Origin: Venatoribacter cucullus
Lineage (GTDB): Bacteria > Pseudomonadota > Gammaproteobacteria > Pseudomonadales > Oceanobacteraceae
Assembly: GCF_016132445.1 (NCBI RefSeq)
Contig: NZ_CP046056.1
Span: forward strand, 1,488,001 to 1,552,000
Direction: 5' to 3'
DNA length: 64,000 bases
Made by a program: the position numbers and the translations under genes. Positions 2,468 through 4,491 of the stretch are shown one piece after another. Position 1 is the stretch's first letter. Each line of letters opens with the position of its first letter. The notes beneath the pieces were generated by a model. The model was given only the letters and a program-made list of their open reading frames with translations, made no database searches and was not told where the DNA came from.

Positions 2468-4303
2468 TTAACTGACCGGACGAATACTGTCATCCGGTAC
2501 GAAAGCATCAAATTCCTGCACGATACGCTGCACCAGCGCATCGCCGGTTATGGCTTGTTTGGCTCCAGCATGCGCCTCAGCCTGCTGCCGCTGGCGGCGT
2601 TGTTCCGGCGTTTCGCCACGGGGCAGCTGCAACTGCATCTGTACCTGCGCTGCCGGAATCAATGTGCGTAAGGCATCCTGAATTTTCTGCTGCTGCGCAG
2701 CATTGAACAAGGCACCCTGCACCGGATCAACATCAAACTCATAACGCTCATCCTGCACCTGTACCAGCGCACTGTTGCGGGCAATGGCCATGGTCAGGCC
2801 GGCCAGCGGCAAGCGCTCAACCCATTGCCACCAGGTGTGGGGTTGTAAGGTCTGTGCGGTCAGTTCAGGTGCGGGCGTGACAGAGACCGGCTCGGATACT
2901 GCGGCGGGCACTGGTTCTGCGGCCTGCTCTGGTTCTTCGGCAAGCGAAGGGGCTGCATCAGGCACGGGGTCGTCAGCAGGCCGTTCGGGCTCTGCCGCTG
3001 CATCTGGCTCTGCGTCCTCAGCGGTAGCGGCCGGCGCTGCAGACCGAGCTGCCGCTCCCGGGCTGGCAGCTTCCTGCGGCGAATCCGCCGCCATAACAGG
3101 GGCCGGAATCGGCGCAGGAGCAGGCACCGGAACGGCAGCAGCATCAGGCTCAGCGGCCTGACTCAGGGGCTTTTTTTTTTGCAGTGCGGTTTGCAGATCC
3201 AGTTCCACCGGCGCAGCCGGTGCCGGCCGGAAGGCCAGCATGCGCAGCAGCAACATTTCAAAGCCCTGGCGCGGATCAGGTGCTAAGGCCAGATCACGGC
3301 GGCCACTGACGCCAATCTGGTAATACAACTGCAGATCTTCTGGTTGCATGGCCATGGACAGTTGCAGAATGGCCTCGCGGTCGCCCTCGGCGTTATCAAT
3401 AGCATCCGGTACCACCTGCCCGAGCGAGGCGCGGTGCCAGATGGTCAGCAATCCCTGCAGCACTTCGTCGTAATCGGGCGCATGTTCTGCGCTGGCGGCG
3501 ACTTCCGCCATTACTTCACTGGCATCGGCACGAGCCAGCACTTCAGCCAGTTTAAACAGGCGACCACGATCCATGGTGCCGAGCATGGCATTGACCTGCT
3601 CTTCCCCAACCAGGCCTTCGCCGTAGGCAATGGCCTGATCGGTCAGACTGAGCGCATCGCGCATACTTCCCTGCGCGGCACGGCCTAACTGCCACAGCGC
3701 CGGTTCTTCGTACTGTACCTGTTCGGCTTCCAGCACTTTGCCCAGATACCCCACAATGCGTTCTGCCGTCATATTCTTCAGGCTGAATTGCAGACAACGG
3801 GACAGTACCGTAACCGGCAGTTTTTGCGGATCGGTGGTGGCCAGCAGAAATTTAACGTGGGCCGGCGGCTCTTCCAGGGTTTTCAGCAGAGCGTTAAAAC
3901 TGTGTGCCGACAGCATGTGTACTTCGTCGATCAGGTAGACCTTAAAACGGCCCCGGGTCGGCGCGTACTGCACGTTATCGAGTAATTCGCGGGTGTCTTC
4001 TACTTTGGTGCGGGAAGCGGCATCGACTTCGATTAAATCAACAAAGCGGCCTTCGGCAATTTCCCGGCAGGCACTGCATTCACCACAGGGACGGGCGCTG
4101 ATGCCCTGCTCGCAGTTCAGGCACTTGGCCAGAATCCGGGCGATGGTGGTTTTGCCGACACCGCGGGTGCCGGTAAACAGATAAGCGTGGTGTAAGCGCT
4201 GCTCATTAAGGGCATTAATCAGTGCCCGCAGGACATGCTCCTGCCCCACCATTTCATCAAAGAAACGGGGTCGCCATTTGCGCGCAAGTACTTGATAACT
4301 CAT
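2468..4303 (-). CDS. dnaX: DNA polymerase III subunit tau (and probably gamma)
   Basis: Clamp-loader ATPase of the DNA polymerase III holoenzyme, 611 aa. Walker A is GTRGVGKT (residues 45-52), followed by the four-cysteine zinc module (about residues 63-79) and Walker B LIDEVHML. Domain III follows, then a long Ala/Pro/Glu-rich linker (about residues 380-480) and the C-terminal polymerase- and helicase-binding region typical of tau. Codons 375-378 lie on a run of ten A residues; a slip to either other frame stops within two to six codons, giving a roughly 380-residue gamma-like product (described separately). The start ATG has only a weak ribosome-binding site. ffs lies 77 bases upstream on the same strand. 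Confidence 0.97.
3144..3181 (-). promoter_or_regulatory. A10 slippery tract plus downstream hairpin in dnaX (candidate frameshift or slippage site)
   Basis: On the coding strand, codons 375-378 read CAA AAA AAA AAG, ten A in a row (3171-3180). After a -1 shift the next codons encode APESGR and then TGA (3152-3150). After a +1 shift they encode SP and then TGA (3165-3163). Eight bases after the tract a perfect 6-bp stem, TCAGGC/GCCTGA with a 6-base loop, occupies 3161-3144, the right spacing for a stimulatory hairpin. Known precedents are the ribosomal -1 frameshift of Escherichia coli dnaX and transcriptional slippage on an A run in Thermus thermophilus dnaX. Which mechanism applies here is not visible. 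Confidence 0.75.

Positions 4304-4380: not shown

Positions 4381-4491
<111 letters not shown>

Follow-up and report, generated by a model that had tools for sequence, protein, structure and literature searches.

The region analysed, here called the window, was a stretch of 64,000 nucleotides of the Venatoribacter cucullus genome. On its minus strand, at 2468-4303, lies a dnaX gene in which tau is specified by a single open reading frame, with a computed product of 611 aa and 66.6 kDa. Matches to the AAA+, lid and domain III regions covered DnaX residues 20-357 (domain III at 232-357, Pfam), and tau domain V was matched at residues 481-607 (Pfam). The best solved relatives of the protein were E. 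coli DnaX structures, and the E. coli gamma chain (373 residues) aligned with residues 1-365. Directly past the minimal clamp-loader domains I-III there is a run of ten T's on the plus strand (3171-3180), which is an A10 tract, the proposed slippage site, in the coding strand of dnaX. It is read as CAA AAA AAA AAG at codons 375-378, just as an earlier note on this DNA had described it, and it ends in an in-frame A_AAA_AAG heptamer. The zero frame continues for 234 codons beyond the tract, and both the reading frame and the domain matches indicate that tau is encoded across it by one open frame. A small SRP RNA was found just upstream of dnaX (4386-4482, minus strand), and the genome is 2.83 Mb, compared with the 3.9-4.4 Mb listed for eight relatives of the same genus.

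Both alternative frames close soon after the tract. Frame translation of the minus strand, with positions taken from the sequence, gave APESGR and then a TGA stop (3150-3152) after 6 codons of the -1 frame, and SP followed by a TGA stop (3163-3165) after 2 codons of the +1 frame, which agrees with the earlier note on both counts. The computed short products are 384 aa (42.7 kDa) after a -1 shift and 379 aa (42.1 kDa) after a +1 shift; the matched domains end by residue 357, and the suggested product of about 380 residues would carry the clamp-loader domains.

Long A runs are uncommon in this genome, with only 12 distinct runs of at least nine A's on both strands of its whole length, three of them A10, while in the window alone the number of A8 matches was not significant (20 of 100 shuffles reached the same number). 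Tract rarity by itself is little proof, and the weight rests on conservation. A search of 44 genomes of the same family gave 42 full dnaX matches (G011 and G019 were without one), and their tracts comprised 26 A10, one A9 (L006), six A7 and eight A6G, plus one that was unreadable because masked bases start within the run (L004). The six A7 genes all belong to genus g7, where the named matches are Oleispira MAGs, and the eight A6G genes to genus g4. The exact A10, in one phase, was spread over six of the eight genera, and was read directly in Thalassolituus maritimus (L033), Parathalassolituus penaei (L035) and Oceanobacter mangrovi (L037). Among the 26 A10 genes the position of the tract ranged from codon 375 to codon 399, while its length and phase were constant. 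Identity in 15-nt windows of the linker was 40-44% beside the tract and 31% further down, as against 76% over the first 1050 nt of dnaX. The earlier note had asked for conservation of the tract and its stops in relatives, and this is what was found: the run is retained while its flanks diverge, and both off-frames were closed within 8 codons in 25 of the 26 genes. The codon preceding the lysines was CAA in 12 of these genes and GAA in 14, with no others, while elsewhere in the same genes CAG outnumbered CAA by 776 to 274, and GAA outnumbered the other Glu codon by 946 to 644. Since GAA is already the commoner Glu codon, only the CAA part of this pattern is informative. The A's of this preceding codon lie outside the ribosomal heptamer and are kept nonetheless. 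The A10 tract therefore looks to be under constraint, with a conservation that exceeds chance.

The two stops differed in how unusual their positions were. Because a synonymous-codon null (applied to family genes only) is weak for any one gene, stop distances were compared with those from other linker positions, and medians were then taken per family; this linker null retained 57 of 74 long-tract, 49 of 59 A6G and 11 of 11 A7G genes, the others having fewer than 20 null positions. Among the 26 A10 genes, the median distance to the +1 stop was 2 codons versus 22 at other linker positions, and in 21 of them this stop followed exactly 2 codons (18 TGA, 2 TAG and 1 TAA). The -1 stop was hardly nearer than typical (median 4.5 codons versus 8, median P 0.48). 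For A6G genes the median +1 distance was 16 codons versus 16.5 at linker positions outside the family (n=43), and 10.5 versus 13.2 inside it (n=6). Synonymous reshuffling that considered both stops jointly gave a median P of 0.17 for the 26 A10 genes and 0.10 for the window gene; given the amino acids, neither stop is individually unlikely, and the residues largely permit both, so that a constraint, if real, also acts on the encoded residues. That the amino acids permit each gene's stop pattern would suit a tract without any programmed role, arising from a patch rich in lysine or from drift, with only tau made in quantity, and the Pseudomonas genes and most class-level dnaX genes indeed lack a qualifying tract. 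Such a reading is very improbable, as it must contend with 26 exact A10 tracts in a fast-changing linker, with CAA in every one of the 12 Gln cases, and with a stop geometry that differs by class in family medians.

Features that stimulate ribosomal frameshifting in E. coli were sought around the window tract. A 6-bp hairpin (TCAGGC at 3161-3156 pairing with GCCTGA at 3149-3144, minus strand) begins 8 bases past the AAG, so its presence, length and spacing are as first noted, but its value as support is lost: the 40 nt after the tract fold at -12.2 kcal/mol (z -0.79), and 48 of 200 shuffles were equally stable. Against mononucleotide shuffles, in a separate scan, z was +0.3. Being no more stable than shuffled sequence, the hairpin was rejected as a candidate stimulator and is probably not one. 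The 15 nt upstream of the tract (3181-3195, minus strand) showed no Shine-Dalgarno-like pairing, at +1.9 kcal/mol; E. coli gave -7.4, and the median of 59 A6G genes was -9.5. When E. coli K-12 dnaX was passed through the same script as a control, it gave, besides that Shine-Dalgarno value, a hairpin z of -2.3, a -1 stop after 1 codon and a +1 stop after 12, and so fell with the A6G group in its stimulator scores. It is unlikely, then, that gamma arises here by -1 ribosomal frameshifting of the E. coli type at the terminal A_AAA_AAG. The heptamer is in frame, the -1 frame does stop after 6 codons, and an ancestry of this kind is plausible, given that all eight genes of genus g4, in the same family, have the full ribosomal design. 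The exact tRNA-Lys-like matches were also of the UUU type among those listed for three A10 genomes (G001, G002, G017), in a pattern search that gave 7 hits in the window genome and, among the matches listed, some one-mismatch hits with a CUU-like loop. However, -1 frameshifting can account neither for the +1 stop nor for the additional A's, the window site has no Shine-Dalgarno-like stretch and only an ordinary hairpin, and there are groups with long tracts that lack the heptamer altogether.

A wider comparison suggests that two designs exist among dnaX genes. The order-level set comprised 258 distinct dnaX genes from the order and named relatives, of which 60 had A6G, 11 had A7G (both classes being defined as runs that end in an in-frame AAG), 79 had A9-A11, and 108 were without a qualifying tract, a class that includes genes cut off or masked at that place (e.g. 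L004, L047, L207, L389). An unfiltered count of runs of six to eight A's at codons 360-460, restricted to genes lacking a long tract, gave 72, of which 57 were A6G in that phase, 11 were A7G and 4 were others. Rows with identical first 1500 nt, or with downstream sequence that was masked or too short, were dropped, and genes whose zero frame ends in fewer than 100 codons (L006, L211, L223, L226, L290, L237) were excluded from the stop and stimulator statistics. The A6G genes (59 used) had a median Shine-Dalgarno-like energy of -9.5 kcal/mol, a median hairpin z of -1.6, and a +1 frame that was free by the linker null. In the A9-A11 genes (74 used) the medians were -2.7 kcal/mol and -0.33, and mostly both frames were closed; within the family, 23% of the 26 A10 genes reached -5 kcal/mol and 27% had a hairpin z below -1. 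A class-level sample of 130 genomes with a match, in which 89 dnaX genes were read, added 10 long tracts and 3 A6G, and 76 genes had no tract. Two of these class-level sites are possibly false, a long run at codon 524 (L339) and an A6G at codon 530 whose zero frame closes 25 codons on (L387), and in one gene (L359) the +1 stop came only after 23 codons. The loci without a tract lie within L302-L390 (class-level) and among the Pseudomonas loci, and gamma, if there is any in those genes, would arise otherwise.

With all rows taken together, both stops lay no further than 8 codons away in 74 of 84 long-tract, 9 of 11 A7G and 14 of 62 A6G genes, while a Shine-Dalgarno energy of -5 kcal/mol or lower was found in 16 of 84, 7 of 11 and 56 of 62, respectively. 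An in-frame A_AAA_AAG was present in 25 of the 26 A10 family genes and in 72 of the 84 long-tract rows. The latter number would fit a combination of RNA polymerase slippage with multi-step ribosomal slippage (-1 and -2) on the long run, and the +1 frame, which would need to be closed for a -2 shift, was closed within 8 codons in 9 of the 11 A7 genes. This combination is nevertheless quite unlikely, since few long-tract rows have stimulators (Shine-Dalgarno as above; hairpin z below -1 in 26 of 84). The tract was found in all three phases, and 10 of 16 long-tract family labels were without an in-frame A_AAA_AAG, as in 6 of the 10 class-level long tracts, where the run is followed by C or T and the heptamer is thereby absent. 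Occupation of all three phases is what a frame-blind process would permit.

The contrast was also seen in medians per family label, these labels being GTDB codes mixed with NCBI names, with three Oleispira rows as a label of their own and two unlabelled rows, E. coli K-12 (A6G) and the MAG L049 (long), as their own groups. Relative to other linker positions, the +1 stop fell into the nearer half for 14 of 15 long groups versus 9 of 19 A6G groups, Shine-Dalgarno energies reached -5 or lower in 2 of 16 versus 17 of 20, and hairpin z was below -1 in 2 of 16 versus 12 of 20. Comparison of the 16 long with the 20 A6G labels gave P values of 0.0004 for +1 distance, 0.005 for +1 rank in the linker (a null that is small in some rows, down to 8 positions), 6e-6 for Shine-Dalgarno energy and 0.0002 for hairpin z. 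This test used all rows, and a version in which A6G representatives had been hand-picked after the values were known was not relied on. On a 178-row tree there were nine changes between long and other tracts, but only three independent pairs on supported branches. In these the +1 stop did not lean either way (1.4 pairs in the expected direction on average, 1.1 in the opposite), while Shine-Dalgarno (1.3 versus 0.1) and hairpin (1.6 versus 0.0) leaned as expected; three strictly independent pairs are too few to decide the contrast. The comparison as a whole suggests one putative design of A6G mostly with stimulators, a nearby -1 stop and a +1 frame that is free, and another of A9-A11 mostly without stimulators and with both frames closed.

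The window gene matches the long-tract design, so that slippage of RNA polymerase is the best explanation for its A10, and the tract is likely to serve for programmed transcriptional slippage of the kind known from Thermus. RNA polymerase would gain or lose A's while transcribing the run. Messages with 10 or 10 +/- 3n A's would then be translated into tau, while those with other A counts would lead ribosomes to the stop in one or other off-frame, giving a short, gamma-like DnaX (about 380 residues) that keeps domains I-III but is without the later tau domains. In E. coli, tau domains IV and V are described as binding DnaB helicase and polymerase alpha (PMC11470591). Slippage on runs of at least nine A's is reported in PMC1088944 and PMC6260861, the former giving 9A as the length from which selection is visible in many genomes. 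Against the slippage reading stand the retained in-frame heptamer, stops that the amino acids permit, a -1 stop that is hardly nearer than typical, stimulator-like signals in some long-tract rows, and the +1 closure seen also in A7 genes, whose runs are shorter than 9A. The occurrence of slippage, its rate and the use of gamma in the clamp loader are what we infer. The earlier note's short, gamma-like DnaX is well supported by the comparison, but it had left the choice between slippage and frameshifting open, and the data favour slippage: there is no Shine-Dalgarno-like stimulator, the hairpin is ordinary, both frames are closed, and A's outside the heptamer are kept. It was the lack of E. coli-type stimulators, together with features that the sequence shares with the Thermus site, that led to this conclusion, which leaves room for some ribosomal share at the retained heptamer.

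The closest known system is dnaX of Thermus thermophilus (A9), which shares with the window gene a tau encoded in a single frame, a long run of A's on the coding strand and off-frames that are both soon closed, the Thermus side being taken from the literature (PMC1088944; PMC5009743, section 21). The window differs in having A10 rather than A9, in the location of the run right after domain III, and in the presence of an in-frame A_AAA_AAG. With E. coli it shares the gene, the logic of the short product and the heptamer, but it lacks the Shine-Dalgarno-like stretch and an unusual hairpin, and has a longer A run and a closed +1 frame. A10 is shared with nine two-ORF dnaX genes from GeneTack, for which transcriptional realignment is proposed in PMC3711429; there, however, tau requires a shift across two ORFs, whereas tau of the window is a single ORF. 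The literature describes E. coli ribosomal frameshifting and Thermus A9 slippage (PMC1088944, PMC3711429, PMC6260861, PMC5009743; see also PMC4066793); among the titles listed, none dealt with this family, and there was none for Thalassolituus with dnaX. The mechanism itself is already known from Thermus; proposed here is its presence in this family, where some close relatives have the ribosome-based version. Judged by sequence, the Thermus-type design would extend to this gammaproteobacterial family and to 14 further family codes, most of one genome each. The data also suggest a candidate sequence rule, with stimulators and a -1 stop marking ribosomal sites, and a long tract with both stops marking transcriptional ones. 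Section 21 of PMC5009743 raises the idea that the choice made in Thermus may be connected with two lysine tRNAs, which close relatives of opposite design would make testable.

The presence of the E. coli design in genus g4, and of A7 in a second genus, suggests that a switch may have taken place inside the family. In the eight g4 genes the Shine-Dalgarno energy was at most -6.6 and hairpin z no higher than about -2, while in the six family A7 genes the energies ranged from -3.2 to -6.6, with hairpin z below -1 in five. A 59-row DnaX tree placed the A7 group together with the A10 group (34 rows, support 100/100), but A10 as a single clade was supported by 81/9, and with the placement of g4 unsettled we infer, rather than read from the tree, the direction from A6 through A7 to A10. 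On balance we lean towards a series within one family from ribosomal frameshifting (g4, A6G), through A7 (the Oleispira group, both frames closed and Shine-Dalgarno weaker), to A10 slippage with the stimulators lost, and towards similar changes in further gammaproteobacterial families. If true, this would be a natural series showing one recoding mechanism replacing another with the product retained. In family f24, the +1 stop came after 2 codons in 3 of 3 A7 genes versus 2 of 17 A6G genes (Fisher P 0.009, uncorrected for kinship). Across the A7 genes, +1 closure after 2 codons was found in L165, L166, L254 and those of the Oleispira group (L030, L031, L039-L041, L135), but not in L156 and L197. 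Seven A's could allow paired lysine tRNAs to re-pair one or two bases back, which could explain the +1 closure.

A few genes appear to work the other way round. In L211 (family f44), A_AAA_AAG occurs at codon 419, 2 codons before the zero frame ends, and a shifted frame encodes a tau C-terminus with 56% identity to that of L216 over 135 residues, so that tau itself would need a shift. Four more genes (L006, L223, L226, L290) have runs of A9-A11, a zero frame closed within 7 codons and a shifted frame that is tau-like (in L226 over 64 residues only), and these may be either genuine two-ORF genes or the result of homopolymer errors in assembly.
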